The position numbers and the translations under genes were made by a program. A stretch of 64,000 nt of DNA from Dialister hominis (GTDB lineage Bacteria; Bacillota; Negativicutes; Veillonellales; Dialisteraceae), in assembly GCF_007164725.1 (NCBI RefSeq), contig NZ_AP019697.1:62001-126000 (forward strand). Direction: 5' to 3'. The notes under the pieces are model-generated. The model saw only the letters and a program-made list of their open reading frames with translations. It searched no databases and was not told where the DNA came from. Shown piece after piece: positions 3,081 to 60,658 of this stretch (the first letter of the stretch is position 1; the number at the start of each line of letters is the position of its first letter).

Positions 3081-4370
3081 ATGGATCCAGCGATTATCAC
3101 ACTATGTGTGCTTGCGGTTGCAGCATTCCTGTTCGTCACCGAACTGATTCCGCTGGCTGTCACAGCTATGGCAGCTTGTACCGCACTGGGCATTCTGGGA
3201 GTACTTCCGTCTAAACAGGTATATGCGGGACTCTCAAACTCCACAGTCGTACTCTTCGGCGGCATGTTCGTCATCGGCGCGGCTATGTTCAAGACAGGCC
3301 TTGCCGAAGCAATCGGCGTAGCCGTCGTCAAGAAGGCAGGAACGAATGAGATTCCGCTCATGGCAGCTATCATGCTCGTCACGATCGTTCTCTCCTCCCT
3401 ATCCTCCAACACTGGTACCGTAGCTTGCCTGATGCCGGTTATCGTAGGCATCTGCCAGGCAGCTAAGATTCCGGCATCCAAGGAACTCATGCCTCTGGCT
3501 ATCGCTGCTAACGTCGGCGGCACGATCACCATGATCGGTACCCCGCCAAACGTCATCGTTACCGGCGCCCTCGCAGCAGCAGGACTCCCGACCTTCGGAT
3601 TCTTCGAATTCGCTAAGATCGGTGTGCCGCTCTCCATCATCATTCTCCTCTACACACTCTTCGTAGGCCGTCACTTCCTGCCGGAAAAATCCGCAGGCCA
3701 GATGGACGAAGAAGCAGTGAAGGCTGCTAAGGAAGAGGCAGGCGCAGGCGGAGATGCTCCGAAGAGCAAAACAAAGATGTGGATTTCCGGCCTGATCCTG
3801 ATCGGCGTCGTTCTGGCTATGGCTCTTGGTCTCAAGAACCTGCCGCTCCACACCGCTGCCGTTACCGGCGCTATTCTCTGCGTCATTACCGGATGCCTCA
3901 AGGAAAAAGAAGCATATGCAGGTATTGACTGGGTAACCATTTTCCTGTTCGCAGGCATGCTTTCCGTTGCAACCGCAATGGACAAGACCGGCGCAGGCAA
4001 ACTGATTGCTGATACCGTCGTAGGTATGATGGGCGCAAACCCGAACCCGTATGTCCTGACAACAGTACTGTTCCTGATTTCCAACATTCTCACGCAGTTC
4101 ATGTCCAACACCGCATCCGCAGCGCTCCTCGCTCCGATCGGAATTTCCATTGCACAGTCCATCGGCGTCGATCCGAAACCGGTTCTGATGGCACTCGGCA
4201 TTGCGGCATCCTGCGCATTCGCCACACCAATGGCTACTCCGCCAAACACCCTCGTCCTCGGACCTGGCGGATTCTCCTTCAATGACTACGTCAAAGTCGG
4301 CGTTCCGATGTGCGTGCTGTCTCTTGTAGTCAGCGTTATCATCATCCCGATCATGTGGCCATTTCATTAA
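3081..4370 (+). CDS. DASS/SLC13-family carboxylate transporter, cassette 1
   Basis: 429-aa integral membrane protein of the divalent anion:Na+ symporter (DASS/SLC13) type. Both family SNT signatures are present (SSNTGT at about residue 109 and MSNTAS at about 342), each followed by a TPPN loop (about 154 and 386); in the family these form the substrate and sodium sites. A charged linker (about 203-231, MDEEAVKAAKEEAG) separates the two halves. The ATG at 3081 is chosen because AAAGGTGG lies just upstream and every paralogue begins MDPAI. The partner OadB-type pump suggests a decarboxylatable substrate such as succinate; that is inference. It could instead carry malate, citrate or another carboxylate. 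Confidence 0.88.
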   Translation: MDPAIITLCVLAVAAFLFVTELIPLAVTAMAACTALGILGVLPSKQVYAGLSNSTVVLFGGMFVIGAAMFKTGLAEAIGVAVVKKAGTNEIPLMAAIMLVTIVLSSLSSNTGTVACLMPVIVGICQAAKIPASKELMPLAIAANVGGTITMIGTPPNVIVTGALAAAGLPTFGFFEFAKIGVPLSIIILLYTLFVGRHFLPEKSAGQMDEEAVKAAKEEAGAGGDAPKSKTKMWISGLILIGVVLAMALGLKNLPLHTAAVTGAILCVITGCLKEKEAYAGIDWVTIFLFAGMLSVATAMDKTGAGKLIADTVVGMMGANPNPYVLTTVLFLISNILTQFMSNTASAALLAPIGISIAQSIGVDPKPVLMALGIAASCAFATPMATPPNTLVLGPGGFSFNDYVKVGVPMCVLSLVVSVIIIPIMWPFH

Positions 4371-24335: not shown

Positions 24336-25797
24336 GGCTCTTCACGGAAATTTGGGGGATGAATAATTTTTAGGTAAAGAATGGAATCGGATAAGGGTAA
24401 AGAAATAATCCATGTTTCGGTACCCATATCCGATTCTTTTTAGTACCTTGATCTTATTATTGAATCCTTCAAGCTTCCCCGTATTGATAGGATACAGGGC
24501 ATGAGCAGCCAGTCCCTTGATTCGCTTCTGCTTTTGCCGGGCAAACTTTACCAGGGCAGGAATCCCGCTCTCCAGTCCAGCCTGAATCCATTTTGTCCAT
24601 CCGGCGAGAGCTTCTTCATAGTCAGTCAATGTGAACAGACGAGTCATCTCCTGCTTCATGGCATAACAAATCGCCAAATCCCTATGCTCGCTCAGGATAT
24701 CCAACAGATGAGTTTTCTGCCTTTCATTCAGGTGGTCGTCCTTCTTTAACAGTATCCATCGGGATTTCTTCAATTCGGTATAAAGCTTCCTTTCTTCATG
24801 GCTCTTTTCCCTGGACATCTTCTGGAGCTCTGGATTATTAGTTTCTTTCGTATATTCCTTTAATGCTTCTGCTTCCTGCCTATGCTTTTGTGCTTCCTCC
24901 AGGCGCACGGCTCCCATAACATCACGCCCAAACTGTGCCTGCATATGGTACCGGTCATAAACGATGGGGGCCTTCGGACAATATTTCTGGAACAGCCTGT
25001 TAAAGGATGCGTTCATATCCATGGCCACCGCTTTTAGCCTGGAAAGAAGCGAAAGGCCAATGCTCTTAAAGAAGTGCTCAAAATCTGACATGGAGCGGCC
25101 CAGGCCGGCCCACAAGATGAATCCCGTTTCCAAATCCATAACGCAGGTGGCATAGCGATGGCCCTTATGGATAGCGAACTCATCTACGGCCAAATACCGT
25201 GGGCGATAGTTACTTTTCTTCAGGCAGGTTTCAAAGGCAGCCAACGCCTTATCCATGATATGCTTTTGTATTTTCTGTATGGTACTCCAATGTACAGAGA
25301 GCATGGCCGAAATGGCAGAAATGGATGTATGACACTTAAGCAGATGGATAATCCACAAGGCCATATCCCAAGTAACGCGTGTGAAAGGGCATTGGCAGGG
25401 GATATCTTCCGTTATGGTCTTCCCGCAGGATGTGCAGCGGAATCTGTGCCCCGAGAACTCTATATACTTCTTTTGCTTAGGAAGATCTGGAAAATCCTTG
25501 ATGAGTACAGAAAAAGCCCCATAACTATACATACGGGAGTGACAGTGCGGACAGGAAAAATCTCTGGCAGTCCGTAGACTGGTAACTCGGGTATGGCAAT
25601 GAGGATTTGGATGGTTAGTGATATTTTCTGTACGATAATATTGACAATTAAAAGTGATTTCATTATGGTAATAAAAGAGCATTATTCGACCTCCGTGCGT
25701 AGTTTTAGGCAACTTACATTTTGGAGTAGATAATGCTCTTTTTCAATGCCAATTTTATATGTTATTATTTTTATCCCACAAAAAAGCGTGAAGAACC
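24336..25797 (-). mobile_element. ISL3-family insertion sequence, complete, copy 1
   Basis: 1,462 bp bounded by imperfect inverted repeats: GGCTCTTCACGGAAATTTGG at the left edge and, read from the other end, GGTTCTTCACGCTTTTTTG. It is flanked by a perfect 8-bp target duplication AATTTTTT (24328-24335 and 25798-25805), the size expected for ISL3. The second copy at 53159-54620 differs by a handful of bases. Confidence 0.92.
24342..25682 (-). CDS. ISL3-family transposase
   Basis: 446 aa from the ATG at 25682, which follows CGGAGGTCGAATA; a TTG 30 bases upstream is a weaker alternative. The N-terminal part has a zinc-ribbon pattern (CPHCHSRM and FRCTSCGKTITED), then a helix-turn-helix region and the DDE domain with Asp in LAVDEFAIHKGH, Asp in VAMDMNASF and Glu in TGKLEGFNNKIK, followed by the family's GYGYRNMDYF. 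Intact and probably active, given the perfect target duplication and the presence of near-identical copies. Confidence 0.92.
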   Translation of the reverse strand: MLFYYHNEITFNCQYYRTENITNHPNPHCHTRVTSLRTARDFSCPHCHSRMYSYGAFSVLIKDFPDLPKQKKYIEFSGHRFRCTSCGKTITEDIPCQCPFTRVTWDMALWIIHLLKCHTSISAISAMLSVHWSTIQKIQKHIMDKALAAFETCLKKSNYRPRYLAVDEFAIHKGHRYATCVMDLETGFILWAGLGRSMSDFEHFFKSIGLSLLSRLKAVAMDMNASFNRLFQKYCPKAPIVYDRYHMQAQFGRDVMGAVRLEEAQKHRQEAEALKEYTKETNNPELQKMSREKSHEERKLYTELKKSRWILLKKDDHLNERQKTHLLDILSEHRDLAICYAMKQEMTRLFTLTDYEEALAGWTKWIQAGLESGIPALVKFARQKQKRIKGLAAHALYPINTGKLEGFNNKIKVLKRIGYGYRNMDYFFTLIRFHSLPKNYSSPKFP

Positions 25798-51215: not shown

Positions 51216-52960
51216 TGTTTGGGGGACGCGGACAAAAAGTTGGACCAATTGACAGAGGTGTCAGGAGGTCAATTTATGTATTCGCATGAAGAGCGCTTAA
51301 AGGCAGTCAAACTGCACGTCGATTCGGGCATGGGGCTCAAAGGCATTATGAGAACGCTCGGCTATCCTCACGACATAAAAGTGTTGCGTCAATGGTGCCG
51401 GGAATTCAAGTTCTCCAGAGAGATTCACGAAGTAGACGGATTTGATGACGGATATTCTCTCAAACAAAAAACATTAGCCGTCAAATACTTCGTAAATTGC
51501 GGCGATCTGCGGCGCACCATCAGGGAAATAGGCTATCCCAGCAGCACGCAGAGATTGAAAATATGGGTTGAGAAATACAACCTTAACGAAAACGATCATT
51601 GGCAAGCTGACCAGAACCCTGTAAAATGGGGGCAAGATCGACAGACGGGAAGCAGTCCACTGATTCAGGAGAATCCATTCGAAGAAATTGAGATAGCCTC
51701 TAACGCTATCTACAAGGACTTAGGCTTCCTCGAGGAATTGTTCCAAAGGAGGCTGGCAACAATGTCTAAAAAGGACTCGGAAGTAACGATTGAATCTTTA
51801 AAAGAAGAAATGCAAGTACTGCTTAGAAATATGGAAAACCTCCGCAAAGAGAATAAAGCATTGCTGAAAGCCAATCAGTCACTGGGAGAGAAGACGAAGT
51901 CTCTTGATGAAAAGTGCCAGACACTTGCGAAAGAGTATAAGGAGCTTGGCGAGCAGACTCTTATTAAACGGATCGAGTACGAAGCCCTCGAGATAGCTGC
52001 AGAAACAATAAAAAAAGAAGAGGGCATCAGTCTAAAAACACTGACCAATCGGGAAAAAGCCATCGTGATTGATGCCCTTCTGAGCCGCAGCAAGTATCCC
52101 CTGAAGAAACTGCTGACGGTGCTAAATATGGCTAAAGCCTCATATTTCTACCAGAAATCCGCTATGAAGGCGGGAGATAAATATGCGGAAATACGCGAAA
52201 CCATCAAAGACAAATTTAAGAAGAACCGGTCGGTTTATGGTTACCGGAGAATCTGGTTAGCGCTCAGAAAAGATGGGAAAATTCTTTCTGAGAAGCTCGT
52301 CCGCCGCTTTATGAAAGAGGATCATCTGGTTCCATACCGCAAAAAAGCTAAAAAGTATAGCTCCTACAAAGGAGAAATTTCACCTGCCCCTAATCTCGTT
52401 AACAGGAATTTTCATGCCGACGAATTAGGAAAGCTGCTTCTCACAGATATTACGGAATTCCACATATCTGCAGGGAAAGTATACCTGTCAGCTATAACTG
52501 ACGTCTTTGACGGCAAGATTGTCGCATGGACGATCGGCACGTCGCCGAATGCCAAACTGGTCAATACCATGCTGGTAAAAGCGAGAGAGGCCCTGGGCGA
52601 TGACAAGCATCCTATCGTTCATTCAGACCGCGGTATACATTACCAATGGCCTGGATGGATCGCCTTGATGAAGAAATTCGGCTGGACAAGATCCATGTCG
52701 AAAAAAGGGTGCTCGCCGGATAATGCTGCTTGTGAAGGTGTCTTTGGAAGAGTAAAAAACGAAATGTTCTATAATAGAAGCTGGATAGGTGTATCCATTA
52801 AAGAATTCATAGCTTACCTAGACGATTATCTTCATTGGTATAATGAAGACCGAATTAAAATTACCTTGGGCGGCATGAGTCCAGTAGAATACAGAGAAAG
52901 CTTAGGGATAATGTAAGTACTACCAGAATGGTCCAAAAAAATATCCGCACCCCCTTGTCA
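51216..52960 (+). mobile_element. IS3-family insertion sequence
   Basis: Ends TG...CA. Left end GGGGGACGCGGA...TTGGACCA and right end, inverted, GGGGGTGCGGAT...TTGGACCA form imperfect inverted repeats of about 30 bp. The element carries one transposase gene. Flanks (..GATAA and ATACC..) do not give an obvious target duplication, so the exact boundary or later changes are uncertain. Confidence 0.8.
51276..52916 (+). CDS. IS3-family transposase, single uninterrupted frame
   Basis: 546 aa from ATG 51276, preceded by CAGGAGGTC. Two N-terminal helix-turn-helix segments (YSHEERLKAVKLHVDSGMG and LKQKTLAVKYFVNCGD), a long coiled coil (about residues 170-245, KEEMQVLLRNMENLRKENKALL), the HTH_21-type region (KNRSVYGYRRIWLALRKDG) and an rve integrase domain with the DDE residues in LLTDITEF, VHSDRGIHY and DNAACEGVFGRVKNE. 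Most IS3 elements make the transposase by -1 frameshifting between two genes; here it is one gene. Confidence 0.92.
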   Translation: MYSHEERLKAVKLHVDSGMGLKGIMRTLGYPHDIKVLRQWCREFKFSREIHEVDGFDDGYSLKQKTLAVKYFVNCGDLRRTIREIGYPSSTQRLKIWVEKYNLNENDHWQADQNPVKWGQDRQTGSSPLIQENPFEEIEIASNAIYKDLGFLEELFQRRLATMSKKDSEVTIESLKEEMQVLLRNMENLRKENKALLKANQSLGEKTKSLDEKCQTLAKEYKELGEQTLIKRIEYEALEIAAETIKKEEGISLKTLTNREKAIVIDALLSRSKYPLKKLLTVLNMAKASYFYQKSAMKAGDKYAEIRETIKDKFKKNRSVYGYRRIWLALRKDGKILSEKLVRRFMKEDHLVPYRKKAKKYSSYKGEISPAPNLVNRNFHADELGKLLLTDITEFHISAGKVYLSAITDVFDGKIVAWTIGTSPNAKLVNTMLVKAREALGDDKHPIVHSDRGIHYQWPGWIALMKKFGWTRSMSKKGCSPDNAACEGVFGRVKNEMFYNRSWIGVSIKEFIAYLDDYLHWYNEDRIKITLGGMSPVEYRESLGIM

Positions 52961-53158: not shown

Positions 53159-54620
53159 GGTTCTTCACGCTTTTTTGTGGGATAAAAATAATAACATATA
53201 AAATTGGCATTGAAAAAGAGCATTATCTACTCCAAAATGTAAGTTGCCTAAAACTACGCACGGAGGTCGAATAATGCTCTTTTATTACCATAATGAAATC
53301 ACTTTTAATTGTCAATATTATCGCACAGAAAATATCACTAGCCATCCAAATCCTCATTGCCATACCCGAGTTACCAGTCTACGGACTGCCAGAGATTTTT
53401 CCTGTCCGCACTGTCACTCCCGTATGTATAGTTATGGGTTTTTTTTTGTACTCATCAAGGATTTTCCAGATCTTCCTAAGCAAAAGAAGTATATAGAGTT
53501 CTCGGGGCACAGATTCCGCTGCACATCCTGCGGGGAGACCATAACGGAAGATATCCCCTGCCAATGCCCTTTCACACGCGTTACTTGGGATATGGCCTTG
53601 TGGATTATCCATCTGCTTAAGTGTCATACATCCATTTCTGCCATTTCGGCCATGCTCTCTGTACATTGGAGTGCCATACAGAAAATACAAAAGCATATCA
53701 TGGATAAGGCGTTGGCTGCCTTTGAAACCTGCCTGAAGAAAAGTAACTATCGCCCACGGTATTTGGCCGTAGATGAGTTCGCTATCCATAAGGGCCATCG
53801 CTATGCCACCTGCGTTATGGATTTGGAAACGGGATTCATCTTGTGGGCCGGCCTGGGCCGCTCCATGGCAGATTTTGAGCACTTCTTTAAGAGCATTGAC
53901 CTTTCGCTTCTTTCCAGGCTAAAAGCGGTGGCCATGGATATGAACGCATCCTTTAACAGGCTGTTCCAGAAATATTGTCCGAAGGCCCCCATCGTTTATG
54001 ACCGGTACCATATGCAGGCACAGTTTGGGCGTGATGTTATGGGAGCCGTGCGCCTGGAGGAAGCACAAAAGCATAGGCAGGAAGCAGAAGCATTAAAGAA
54101 ATATACGAAAGAAACTAATAATCCAGAGCTCCAGAAGATGGCCAGGGAAAAGAGCCATGAAGAAAGGAAGCTTTATACCGAATTAAAGAAATCCCGATGG
54201 ATACTGTTAAAGAAGGACGACCACCTGAATGAAAGGCAGAAAACTCATCTGTTGGATATCCTGAGCGAGCATAGGGATTTGGCGATTTGTTATGCCATGA
54301 AGCAGGAGATGACTCGTCTGTTCACATTGACTGACTATGAAGAAGCTCTCGCCGGATGGACAAAATGGATTCAGGCCGGACTGGAGAGCGGGATTCCTGC
54401 CCTGGTAAAGTTTGCCCGGCAAAAGCAGAAGCGAATCAAGGGACTGGCTGCTCATGCCCTGTATCCTATCAATACGGGGAAGCTTGAAGGATTCAATAAT
54501 AAGATCAAGGTACTAAAAAGAATCGGATATGGGTACCGAAACATGGATTATTTCTTTACCCTTATCCGATTCCATTCTTTACCTAAAAATTATTCATCCC
54601 CCAAATTTCCGTGAAGAGCC
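53159..54620 (+). mobile_element. ISL3-family insertion sequence, complete, copy 2
   Basis: 1,462 bp, same length and ends as copy 1 but opposite orientation. The flanks AAAATTCT and AGAATTCT agree at 7 of 8 bases, consistent with an aged 8-bp target duplication. The right end lies only 12 bases before the -35 box of the next gene. Confidence 0.9.
53274..54614 (+). CDS. ISL3-family transposase
   Basis: 446 aa, differing from copy 1 at a few residues (for example YGFFFVLIKDF for YGAFSVLIKDF and SMADFEHFFKSIDL for SMSDFEHFFKSIGL). Catalytic and zinc motifs are unchanged. ATG 53274 follows CGGAGGTCGAATA. Apparently intact. Confidence 0.92.
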   Translation: MLFYYHNEITFNCQYYRTENITSHPNPHCHTRVTSLRTARDFSCPHCHSRMYSYGFFFVLIKDFPDLPKQKKYIEFSGHRFRCTSCGETITEDIPCQCPFTRVTWDMALWIIHLLKCHTSISAISAMLSVHWSAIQKIQKHIMDKALAAFETCLKKSNYRPRYLAVDEFAIHKGHRYATCVMDLETGFILWAGLGRSMADFEHFFKSIDLSLLSRLKAVAMDMNASFNRLFQKYCPKAPIVYDRYHMQAQFGRDVMGAVRLEEAQKHRQEAEALKKYTKETNNPELQKMAREKSHEERKLYTELKKSRWILLKKDDHLNERQKTHLLDILSEHRDLAICYAMKQEMTRLFTLTDYEEALAGWTKWIQAGLESGIPALVKFARQKQKRIKGLAAHALYPINTGKLEGFNNKIKVLKRIGYGYRNMDYFFTLIRFHSLPKNYSSPKFP

Positions 54621-54632
54621 AGAATTCTTTCC

Positions 54633-54661
54633 TTGACACATATGGAAAAGGATGGTAATCT
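54633..54661 (+). promoter_or_regulatory. Promoter of the ZTP-riboswitch unit
   Basis: TTGACA (54633-54638), 17-base spacer, TAATCT (54656-54661). It begins 13 bases after the ISL3 end, so the insertion replaced whatever lay upstream. Confidence 0.75.
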
Positions 54662-54678
54662 AAAGCCACAAACGAAAG

Positions 54679-54779
54679 ACACCGCGGAACTGACGGAATG
54701 ATGTGGAATCGACCACGTGAACCGCGGATGATCTGATTGGCCGACCGTCTGGGCAGGGAAACCTGAACAGGCGGTTTTT
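54679..54779 (+). ncRNA. ZTP (pfl) riboswitch with overlapping terminator
   Basis: Aptamer boxes are AACTGACGGAA (54688-54698), a GTGG/CCAC hairpin, and the 3' element GGCCGACCGTCTGGGCAGG (from 54739). ACCGTCTG of the 3' element also pairs with CAGGCGGT, followed by Ts (54744-54779), forming the competing terminator. ZTP/ZMP accumulates when 10-formyl-tetrahydrofolate is short, so the next gene should be switched on under one-carbon limitation. Confidence 0.9.
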
Positions 54780-54820
54780 GCGTCTTTGGTTTCCCTTCAT
54801 TGTTAAAGTGGAGGGATTAT

Positions 54821-56113
54821 ATGAGAAGAAATCGTTGGTTGATTGCACTCGCTGCGGTCGGAATTCACATCTGCATAGGCAGCGTCTATGCATGGAGCGT
54901 TCTTACAAAGCCGGTCATGGCAGCTATGGGACTGACTCTTAGCGAAACGACATGGGCATTCTCGCTCGCTATTTTATTTCTTGGCATGTCCGCAGGCTTC
55001 CTGGGCGGCTTCGTGGAAAGGATCGGACCATCCCGCAGCGGTCTCGTTTCCGCTCTTTTCTTCGGCACAGGACTTTTGGGGACAGCGCTTGCCGTGCACA
55101 TGCACTCATCGGCGCTCCTTTACCTTTTCTACGGATGCATCGGAGGCATCGGCCTTGGCACCGGATACATCACGCCGGTTTCCACACTCGTCAAATGGTT
55201 CCCGCGCCACAGAGGCTTTGCGACAGGCCTGGCAATCATGGGATTCGGATTTGCCGCACTGATCGCTGGCCCGGTCATGCGCTGGCTCGTTGATACGTAC
55301 GGACTGTTAGAAAACTTCGTCATCCTTGGCTGCGTTTACGCCGTCGTCATGATTGCTTCGGCTTCCTACCTGCGTCCGCCGAAAAAAGGCGAAATTCCTG
55401 CCCTGATCGATGAAGTCCTCGCGCAGGAAGCGGCTCTTGGCAAGAAGAGAACCGTCCTTGGCCCGCAGATGACCAGAAAAGAAGCGATGCATACATGGAA
55501 ATGGTATGCGCTCTGGTGGGTATTCTTTACCAACATTACCTGCGGCATCGGTCTTCTTGCCGTTGCATCCCCGATGGCACAGGAAGTCATCGGCATGACC
55601 CCGGCGCAGGCAGCATCCCTCGTCGGCATCATCGGCATCGTCAATGGCGGCGGCCGTATCGTATGGTCCAGTATTTCCGACTGGATCGGCCGCGGCGTCA
55701 CCTACATGGTATTCTTCCTCTTTGAAGTCTTTGCTTTCCATCAGCTCTCCATTACCAGAGAAGGCTTCATCTTCCAGGCACTCGTTCTTGCCATCATCTC
55801 CTGCTACGGCGGCGGCTTCTCCTGCATGCCGGCATTCCTTTCTGACATCTTCGGCGTACGCCAGCTCGCTTCCATCCACGGATCCATCCTGACTGCATGG
55901 GGCATCGCAGGCGTGGCAGGCCCGCTCATCCTGGCATTCATGAAAGAAACCACCGGCAGCTACAGCGCTACCCTCCAGCTCTTTGCCGGAATGCTCGCCG
56001 TTGCCTTTGTCATCAGCGCCGTCCTCCACTGGAGAAACGAAGTGGACAAGAAACGCTACGTCATGGAAGAAGCATCCAAAGACTCCATCTCCAACATGGC
56101 AGAAGCACATTAA
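54821..56113 (+). CDS. OFA-family MFS transporter (oxalate/formate antiporter type)
   Basis: 430 aa with twelve spans. The family N-terminus is present (WLIALAAVGIHICIGSVYAWSVLTKPV) along with GGIGLGTGYITPVSTLVKWFPRHRGFATGLAIMGFGF, both typical of OFA proteins such as OxlT. ATG 54821 follows GTGGAGGG. The ZTP riboswitch upstream points to a one-carbon role, with formate import being the simplest idea, since formate is the substrate for making 10-formyl-tetrahydrofolate. Export or exchange of oxalate or another acid is the alternative. Confidence 0.87.
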   Translation: MRRNRWLIALAAVGIHICIGSVYAWSVLTKPVMAAMGLTLSETTWAFSLAILFLGMSAGFLGGFVERIGPSRSGLVSALFFGTGLLGTALAVHMHSSALLYLFYGCIGGIGLGTGYITPVSTLVKWFPRHRGFATGLAIMGFGFAALIAGPVMRWLVDTYGLLENFVILGCVYAVVMIASASYLRPPKKGEIPALIDEVLAQEAALGKKRTVLGPQMTRKEAMHTWKWYALWWVFFTNITCGIGLLAVASPMAQEVIGMTPAQAASLVGIIGIVNGGGRIVWSSISDWIGRGVTYMVFFLFEVFAFHQLSITREGFIFQALVLAIISCYGGGFSCMPAFLSDIFGVRQLASIHGSILTAWGIAGVAGPLILAFMKETTGSYSATLQLFAGMLAVAFVISAVLHWRNEVDKKRYVMEEASKDSISNMAEAH

Positions 56114-56142: not shown

Positions 56143-56189
56143 AAAGGGTTGTGGAAATGTTCAATCATTTCTACAGCCCTTCTTTTTTT
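56143..56189 (+). terminator. Terminator after the OFA transporter
   Basis: AAGGGTTGTGGAAATG pairs imperfectly with CATTTCTACAGCCCTT, then TCTTTTTTT. Confidence 0.8.
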
Positions 56190-57734: not shown

Positions 57735-59312
57735 ATGAAAAATAACAACACTAGCAATCATTTTACCGCAGAACAAGGCATTTTGCCAATGTTTCCCTCT
57801 GAGATTCTCAATGTCGATGATCCTGTTTTAATGTATGACAGATTTATGGAGGAAATCGATCTTAAAAAGTACCTTCGTTACATACCGACGCGTGGCGCTG
57901 GCAGACCCAGGTATAATCCCGTCAACATGCTGAAAACGATCATCTATGGTTTCGCAGAAAAAGGATATTGCTCTTTTAGAAAACTTGAAGATAATTGCAG
58001 GGTTAACATCAGATATATGTACCTGATGAATTATGAAGCCCCATCCTATCGGACATTCTGTCATTTCGTGAAGGGCTTTCTTAAGTATTCTCTCAAGGAT
58101 ATCTTTTATTCAATTACGAAAGAACTCTGCGGCAAACTCAACGTGGATTTGCAGCATATATATATTGACGGTTCCAAGTTTGAAGCGAACGCAAATAAAT
58201 ATAGCTGGGTATGGAAGAAATCCGCTGAAAAATCTCGCTACAAGCATTTTGCCAAGATTACCAGCCTTTTTGAGTTACTCAATGATGATCTTAAGTATGA
58301 CCATATGAGTGTAAACATCAATACAGAATACGCTCCGGACTATCTGCGTCTGGTATTGGATAAATTAAAAGAAATCTGGCAGATTGATGAGACGGCCTTT
58401 GTTCATGGAAGCGGGCATCGCAAGTCCGATCATCAACGCAAGTATGAGCAGCTTAAGGCATATACATCAAAACTTGAAGAATATGTTGAGAAGATACAGA
58501 TATGCGGTACTTCCAGAAACAGTTACTCGAAGACCGATACGGATGCAACATTCATGCGAATCAAGTCGGACTACAAGGGAAATGATCAGCTTCTGCCTGC
58601 ATACAATGTCCAAATAGGTGTTGCCGATGAATTTATTGCCGTAATTGATGTTAACCAGTATCGTTCAGATATGGATTGCTTCGTACCGCTGATGGAGGAA
58701 TTCCACGAAGTCTATGGGGCTTATCCTAAGTATCCTGTGGCAGATGCAGGATATAGATCTTTCAACAATTACATCTATTGCGAGCAGCACGGTATGGAAA
58801 AGTATATGAAATTCCCCATGTACAAGAAAGAAACGAAAGACAAGAAATACCATACCAATCCGTTTCGGCCAATAAACTTTAGAGTTGATGAGAATGGAAC
58901 CATCCGTTGTCCAAATGACAGGGCTTTCAAATTTATCTACAGACATCTGGTCAGAGGGAACTTATACGGCAGGCAGGAGGAAGTATTTGAATGCGAAGAC
59001 TGCCAAGGATGCCCGCTGGCAGAGCAATGTAAAAAGACCCCGAAGAACAAAAGAATCTCATTGAGCAGAGAACGGAATAACATGTACCAGGAGGTTCAGG
59101 ATAATCTGGAAAGCATCCATGGAGCCCTGCTAAGAATGAACCGGTCAATCCAGGCTGAAGGAACTTTTGGAATCATGAAACATGACAGATGGTACAAAAG
59201 AATCGTCAGAAAAGGGATAGATTCTGTAAAAGCCGAGTTATACCTGGTAGCACTTGGCTATAATTTAAGGAAATACATCACAAAAATAATGCGTATAAGG
59301 ATTGCCGCCTAA
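57735..59312 (+). CDS. IS1182-family transposase
   Basis: 525 aa. N-terminal PRYNPVNMLKTIIYGFAEKGYCSFRKLEDNCRVN matches the DUF772 domain, IYIDGSKFEANANKYSW holds the first catalytic Asp, DAGYRSFNNYIYCEQ the second, and EGTFGIMKHDRWYKRIVRKG the Glu. The zinc-knuckle CEDCQGCPLAEQC lies between them. The TTG at 57735 gives MKNNN; it is close to the IS-internal hairpin (57676-57711). Intact. Confidence 0.93.
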   Translation: MKNNNTSNHFTAEQGILPMFPSEILNVDDPVLMYDRFMEEIDLKKYLRYIPTRGAGRPRYNPVNMLKTIIYGFAEKGYCSFRKLEDNCRVNIRYMYLMNYEAPSYRTFCHFVKGFLKYSLKDIFYSITKELCGKLNVDLQHIYIDGSKFEANANKYSWVWKKSAEKSRYKHFAKITSLFELLNDDLKYDHMSVNINTEYAPDYLRLVLDKLKEIWQIDETAFVHGSGHRKSDHQRKYEQLKAYTSKLEEYVEKIQICGTSRNSYSKTDTDATFMRIKSDYKGNDQLLPAYNVQIGVADEFIAVIDVNQYRSDMDCFVPLMEEFHEVYGAYPKYPVADAGYRSFNNYIYCEQHGMEKYMKFPMYKKETKDKKYHTNPFRPINFRVDENGTIRCPNDRAFKFIYRHLVRGNLYGRQEEVFECEDCQGCPLAEQCKKTPKNKRISLSRERNNMYQEVQDNLESIHGALLRMNRSIQAEGTFGIMKHDRWYKRIVRKGIDSVKAELYLVALGYNLRKYITKIMRIRIAA

Positions 59313-59473: not shown

Positions 59474-60658
59474 TTATCTCTGTGCTTCTTCCAGTTTTTC
59501 CAGGAAGAACTTCACATTATCCGTGAGATCCGGGCCTTCTGTCTGAAGAGCACCGCCCACGAGGAAAATCGTATCCGGACCGTAAGTCTGGTACATATTC
59601 TTGAAAAGCTGCCAGCGCATGCCGCCCGAAGGAACGGGGAATATGGAGCGGAGGCCGCCCATCATTTCCGATGTGCCTTCGCAGATCTTCTGGCAGGTAT
59701 CGACAGAGAAGGAGAACCTTCCGCCGAAGCTGGTAAAGATGGCAGCGTCAGCGCCGATCAGGCGGGAGAGCTGTCCATAATAGCAGAAGGGGGACATGCC
59801 GGAATCTTCAGAAAGAACGAGAGAGCCGGAGAAGCATGGATGGAGGAAAATCGGAAGATGGAATTCCGGATCCCTTGCCAGATCGCGGATCAGCGTGAAG
59901 CCGGTGAGAGCCGGAGCGACCATGATGCCGTCTGCCCCGATTTCCTGCGCCTTGTAAGCACGGTCGAGCATCTGCAGGCCGTCAGCCGTGCAGTTGGCGA
60001 TGTACATGCTCTTCTTGCCTGTCTTTTCCTTCGCATCAGCCAGCGCCATGACGCACTGGAGCACTCTTTCTTCGAAAGGAGCATAATCCTGATTCATGAG
60101 AGAATGGTCGTCCTTGATGATCGGGCAGCCGCCAAGAGCGAGCTTGTAAACCATTTCAGCCAGCTCCTTCGGACTCTTGCCGAGCGGCTTGATCGCACTC
60201 ATGAGGATCGGGCCATGTTCCACACCGCACAATTCACGGATGCCTTCGCGGCCGAAACGCGGACCCGGATAATCATTGTACATGAAATCCGGAAGCTCGA
60301 ACGACATCAGGCGGATGCCAGGCTGCAGACTCGTATTTCCGAAGAACATATTGACCAGTTCAGACATTTCATGGCCTACAGCATCCGGATCATACGAAAT
60401 GACAGCGTAGTAAGCACCCGGATCAGCCTTATTGATCGATTCAATCTGGCCGACAATCGTATCTCCGATCGGAGTATCCTCGACCAGCTCATACGGACAT
60501 TCGACCGTCTGCTCCACGCAGATGCCGAAAGCCAGCTTCTTTGCTTCCTCATAATCAGATGCCTTGATGCGGTAGGTTGCTGTAAAGCGGGAAGATGCCT
60601 TCAGATCTTCACTCAGTTCAGCAAATAATTCACTTTCGAAAAAAGGTGTATCGCCCAT
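59474..60658 (-). CDS. RuBisCO-like protein (form IV type)
   Basis: 394 aa, homologous to the RuBisCO large subunit. Active-site equivalents: SAIKPLG for the first lysine, GGCPIIKDDHSL around the carbamylated lysine with His replacing the usual Glu (KDDH for KDDE), HPCFSGS for the His loop, and PVPSGGMRW for the phosphate-binding Ser-Gly-Gly. This is not a CO2-fixing enzyme; related RuBisCO-like proteins act in methionine salvage or sugar-acid (apionate) breakdown. No salvage or sugar-acid genes are adjacent, so the reaction stays open. The start follows AAAGGAG, 29 bases after the glycosyltransferase stop. Confidence 0.88.
   Translation of the reverse strand: MGDTPFFESELFAELSEDLKASSRFTATYRIKASDYEEAKKLAFGICVEQTVECPYELVEDTPIGDTIVGQIESINKADPGAYYAVISYDPDAVGHEMSELVNMFFGNTSLQPGIRLMSFELPDFMYNDYPGPRFGREGIRELCGVEHGPILMSAIKPLGKSPKELAEMVYKLALGGCPIIKDDHSLMNQDYAPFEERVLQCVMALADAKEKTGKKSMYIANCTADGLQMLDRAYKAQEIGADGIMVAPALTGFTLIRDLARDPEFHLPIFLHPCFSGSLVLSEDSGMSPFCYYGQLSRLIGADAAIFTSFGGRFSFSVDTCQKICEGTSEMMGGLRSIFPVPSGGMRWQLFKNMYQTYGPDTIFLVGGALQTEGPDLTDNVKFFLEKLEEAQR

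Follow-up and report, generated by a model that had tools for sequence, protein, structure and literature searches.

ZTP riboswitches are known mainly for the control of purine and folate enzymes; purH, fhs and pfl are their classical targets, and Weinberg et al. (2010), in their main text, give enzymes rather than transporters as the common ones (PMC2864571). The 64-kb stretch of the Dialister hominis genome analysed here (the window) carries such a riboswitch directly upstream of a gene for a membrane transporter, which raises the question of what this protein moves and why its synthesis should follow the state of the folate pool. Our answer is that the riboswitch, acting as an ON switch, quite likely induces formate uptake via this MFS transporter when 10-formyl-tetrahydrofolate (10-formyl-THF) is short. 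A first-pass annotation had placed the unit at 54679-56113, correct within 3 bases, and the features of the locus are collected in the table.

Features of the riboswitch and transporter locus, in positions of the 64-kb window
Feature	Position	Strand	Basis
Putative promoter (TTGACA at 54633-54638, 17-nt spacer, TAATCT with preceding TG)	54633..54661	+	by eye
ZTP (pfl motif) riboswitch aptamer, RF01750	54676..54761	+	cmscan; covarying P1 in relatives
Intrinsic terminator of the leader (stem 54743-54751/54768-54776)	54743..54779	+	minimum-energy fold
Inner hairpin of the leader terminator	54754-54757/54762-54765	+	minimum-energy fold
U tract of the leader terminator	54775-54779	+	minimum-energy fold
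Probable ribosome-binding site (GGAGGG)	54810..54815	+	by eye
12-helix MFS transporter, 430 aa, predicted formate (formate/H+) importer	54821..56113	+	MFS_1, NF049980, structure, neighbourhoods
Probable intrinsic terminator 3' of the transporter gene (stem-loop, then T run)	56144..56189	+	by eye

The riboswitch itself is an ordinary member of the ZTP class, which it resembles in aptamer sequence and fold, in the overlap of its 3' stem with a terminator and in its ON logic. The match to RF01750 is full-length (model positions 1-86 of 86) and scores 55.3 bits (E 2.9e-6) against a gathering score of 39 bits; the earlier reading of complete aptamer boxes is thereby borne out, and the lack of an aptamer fold, which had been named as an objection to it, is not what we found. 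By cmscan this is the sole Rfam match in the window and the sole ZTP match in the 2.41-Mb genome. Among the leaders of 21 relatives, P1 carries compensatory changes, both sides having changed in 9 of 16 predicted pairs. When the stretch 54676-54800 is folded, the 5' arm of the terminator (ACCGUCUG) lies within the conserved 3' box of the aptamer and pairs downstream, ahead of the U tract, so that aptamer and terminator are mutually exclusive. Such an overlap, also claimed in the first-pass annotation, was detected by our own criterion in 64 of 72 homologous leaders, and in the remaining eight the complementary arm is present with a shorter or interrupted U tract. The arrangement is the antiterminator one described for Thermosinus, whose ZTP switch forms a terminator by downstream pairing of P3 nucleotides except when the pseudoknot is held by ZMP (PMC7337938). 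From this shared architecture we infer that the leader is an ON-type switch, and this copy presumably binds the same ligand.

The pairing of switch and transporter is conserved throughout the order. Matches in a sample of 61 genomes were assigned by their coordinates relative to the transporter, fhs, PFL and purH genes, and the 73 ZTP matches, found in 48 genomes, distribute between the transporter (41), purH (15), fhs (14) and pfl (3) with none left over. The classical targets of the class thus recur in this order of gut and oral bacteria, where the commonest target is the transporter; it is the only one in 30 genomes, including that of Dialister hominis. A transporter orthologue exists in 41 of the 61 genomes and has an aptamer directly upstream in all 41, the median distance to the first aligned residue being 77 nt (range 36-151). 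We estimate the probability of such a placement by chance at about 4e-4 per genome, so that the association is not a random one. Two congeneric genomes have neither switch nor transporter. The six genomes of another genus (g11, G034-G039) have fhs and PFL but neither PurH nor ZTP aptamer nor transporter, which is what one would expect if sensing ZMP served no purpose without PurH. One in-frame stop was seen within the matched stretch of the orthologue in G007, G096, G097, G345 and G169. At three Megasphaera-like loci (L093, L097, L098), other ZTP aptamers precede fhs together with a methenyl-THF cyclohydrolase-like gene, and still others stand before a monofunctional AICAR formyltransferase and pyruvate formate-lyase.

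This regulon puts the transporter beside a gene for formate use (fhs), one for 10-formyl-THF use (purH) and one for formate making (pfl). Fhs is encoded in 60 of the 61 genomes, Dialister hominis included, and PFL in none of the 12 genomes of its bacterial family, which therefore has no PFL-derived formate; with PFL absent and fhs present, imported formate would be a sensible source of 10-formyl-THF. A strict complementarity between transporter and PFL was considered and rejected, since many genomes have both and one PFL-containing genus has neither switch nor transporter. The genome of Dialister hominis also contains an FNT-type channel gene (FocA/FdhC/NirC family), so formate may have another entry route, and the idea that the transporter makes up for a lack of FNT channels is not supported. 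The FocA/FdhC formate channels (FNT, PF01226) and the transporter are both predicted to move formate and are unrelated in family and fold.

Orthologues beyond the order allow the transporter to be followed into other gene contexts. In Negativicutes outside the order, cmscan places an aptamer upstream of most sampled orthologues; at L145 it scores below the cut-off and the ZTP boxes are visible by eye, at L112 the upstream region is cut by the contig end, and the switch is absent from L193 and from the copies at 51-59% identity (L209, L210, L211, L228). Outside Negativicutes the sample holds 40 orthologous loci, mostly from Bacillaceae, and none of the 29 run against Rfam has a ZTP aptamer at the gathering cut-off. 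Neighbours of the purT, fdhD or FdhF type, their identities confirmed on examples, occur at 32 of these 40 loci: in 11 the transporter lies directly downstream of purT, which encodes the formate-dependent GAR transformylase, and in 21 it adjoins fdhD and/or an FdhF/YdeP-type oxidoreductase, counts that are not independent because the purT-adjacent orthologues form a single clade and the genomes are related. More distant members at 35-42% identity, from other Negativicutes, adjoin fhs (L219, L220, L230, L232), folD (L222) or fdhD (L221), and L230 has a ZTP aptamer upstream as well. The switch or a recognised one-carbon neighbour is missing at L162, L193, L169, L175, L176, L183, L187, L192, L200 and L201. 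Because several separate kinds of neighbourhood (purT, formate dehydrogenase, fhs, folD) agree, they point to formate, which, by this gene context, is most likely the substrate. An expressed oxalate/formate antiporter gene near a formate dehydrogenase has been described in a metatranscriptome study (PMC11201294). In Salinicoccus kekensis (L186), two tandem transporter copies stand beside fdhD and FdhF-type genes. A small protein without NCBIfam match, which we take to be DUF2294-like, repeatedly separates the transporter from the FdhF-type oxidoreductase in Bacillaceae (L178 at 3316-3678, L188, L203 and others).

The protein belongs to the MFS (PF07690, MFS_1: 120 bits against a cut-off of 33.4), and its nearest solved structures by sequence, SfMCT and OxlT, are also the top Foldseek matches of the predicted model (pLDDT 85.8). 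The model superposes on OxlT with a Z score of 41.4 (3.3 Å over 380 residues) and on MCT1 with one of 43.1 (2.2 Å over 370). SfMCT, the L-lactate/H+ symporter of Syntrophobacter (PDB 6g9x, NF049980), shares about 25% identity with the transporter and is the closest relative to have been characterised. Besides the MFS fold, the two proteins share Tyr381 and, according to pairwise alignments, the carboxylate-binding residues of SfMCT (Tyr116, Asn275 and Arg279 in the transporter); Glu255 and Glu376 occupy the acidic proton-site positions of SfMCT, suggesting that transport may be proton-coupled. They differ where SfMCT has Leu145, Phe359 and Cys362 and the transporter Phe142, Leu357 and Trp360, as well as in the replacement of His250 by Val and of Arg256 by Gln. 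The pocket residues are almost invariant in 72 orthologues, an invariance partly built in for V22, Y23, I139 and F142, since these four lie in the peptide patterns used for retrieving the loci and Leu357 and Trp360 lie outside them. A pocket signature exclusive to the ZTP clade was considered and dropped: the members at 35-42% identity have it too, save for conservative changes at 139 and 246.

The name under which such proteins are annotated would make this one a carrier of L-lactate (or pyruvate), with the ZTP switch tuning carbon supply under folate stress. Indeed, it scores 369.3 bits on the NF049980 model 'L-lactate MFS transporter' (cut-off 320), SfMCT is its best match in both sequence and fold, and the Arg, Tyr and Asn that hold the carboxylate are common to both. 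NF049980 is, however, a broad model, which also admits paralogues with other pockets; the sampled ones have other neighbours, for example CoA-transferase genes in one case and, in others, thiolase-like and acyl-CoA dehydrogenase-like genes named by eye. It speaks against formate that SfMCT carries L-lactate and that linear monocarboxylates with fewer than three carbons do not compete significantly in it (PMC6573034). From the lactate pocket of SfMCT (Tyr119, Leu145, Asn276, Arg280, Phe359, Cys362) the transporter keeps only the Tyr, Asn and Arg, the remaining contacts being Phe, Leu and Trp. The transporter clade further differs from SfMCT in lying among formate and one-carbon genes: purT, fdhD, FdhF, fhs and folD recur as neighbours, and none for lactate metabolism was recognised. 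Since the model is broad and the neighbours are formate genes, we give the annotation less weight, and because lactate would provide no direct supply of 10-formyl-THF, least of all in a family without PFL, we regard lactate as quite unlikely. A pocket with a single arginine would suit several monocarboxylates, and ZTP control would make sense for whatever compound supplies one-carbon units or folate, which leads to glyoxylate, glycolate or p-aminobenzoate as other small carboxylates that the protein could bring in; purT and formate dehydrogenase use formate and none of these three, and this substitution for formate is to our mind unlikely.

The relationship with OxlT (PDB 8hpk, TIGR00890/TIGR04259) bears on direction as well as on substrate. 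OxlT is an oxalate/formate exchanger and gene neighbourhood is unable to tell import from export, so that a protein sending formate out, or exchanging it for oxalate, under folate stress could be imagined. In OxlT, Arg272 and Lys355 are essential, and both are conserved in the OFA family (PMC10070484). The transporter resembles OxlT in fold and in its equivalents of Arg272, Tyr35, Tyr124 and Asn268; it has Trp360 in the place of Lys355, the second base of OxlT, as do almost all orthologues examined, and Leu in the place of Trp352, the pairwise alignments setting Phe142, Leu357 and Trp360 against a Tyr, a Trp and a Lys. The Arg and Lys pair that marks OFA proteins is thus incomplete, and the scores are far below the cut-offs of TIGR00890 (188.3 against 374.85 bits) and TIGR04259 (131 against 335 bits). 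On the TIGR00890 score and the absence of Lys355 we reject a strict oxalate/formate antiporter, and the designation as an OFA-family gene in the first-pass annotation is loose and not supported in the strict sense. Among the listed neighbours we recognised no genes for the breakdown of oxalate, and to lose formate while 10-formyl-THF is short would deepen the shortage; export or exchange is accordingly highly improbable, and we take the direction to be inward. The other half of the earlier proposal, namely that formate is imported for the folate pool, stands as the likeliest purpose, given the ZTP control that it has in common with purH and fhs of relatives, and the purT, formate dehydrogenase, fhs, folD and fdhD neighbours.

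Formate uptake under folate stress would proceed as follows. When 10-formyl-THF falls, PurH stalls and ZMP/ZTP accumulates, as is established for the ZTP riboswitch class. Binding of ZMP/ZTP to the nascent leader would stabilise the pseudoknot and P3, and the stabilised P3 would block the terminator that shares its strand, so that the transporter gene is transcribed. The transporter, of the OFA/SLC16-like branch of the MFS, would then take formate in, probably with a proton, and Fhs would convert formate and THF to 10-formyl-THF, relieving the shortage. In extension of this scheme, we are inclined to think, with less assurance, that a large, mis-named MFS subfamily consists of formate importers with Phe142, Leu357 and Trp360 as diagnostic residues, and that in Negativicutes it was wired to the alarmone ZTP as an uptake arm of the response to folate stress. 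If formate is indeed carried, a subfamily of MFS proteins now labelled as lactate or oxalate carriers would acquire a function, and cross-feeding with formate in the gut would be linked to folate stress. Compared with the ZTP class at large, the Dialister hominis genome stands out in that its only target is a transporter; what emerges is a ZTP regulon with predicted uptake as its main target, and a probable reassignment of the transporter subfamily. Kim et al. (2015) reportedly validated the ZTP riboswitch class. The open-access full text searched yielded no report of a ZTP riboswitch with a formate (or oxalate/formate) transporter; priority for the pairing is uncertain, as the 2015 work may name the gene.

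The immediate surroundings of the unit are rich in mobile DNA. The promoter is a proposal only, because no site at the leader passed the scan for consensus sigma-70 promoters, and the putative terminator behind the gene suggests that the transporter is probably a one-gene transcription unit. On the minus strand, 59474-60658 encodes a RuBisCO-like protein whose best match is a DK-MTP-1-P enolase (MtnW), far under every curated cut-off. An ISL3-family insertion element, without near match within the plasmid collection, occupies 53159-54620, with its transposase at 53244-54614; its terminal inverted repeats are imperfect, and an 8-bp duplication of the target (AAAATTCT/AGAATTCT) is probable. About 12 nt separate the end of the element from the proposed -35 box downstream, and the promoter of the riboswitch therefore seems to have been spared. 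A second end of the same type of element lies in opposite orientation at position 24336, and the open reading frames 51219-52916 and 57735-59312 also resemble transposases, making the region from 51 to 59 kb dense in insertion elements.
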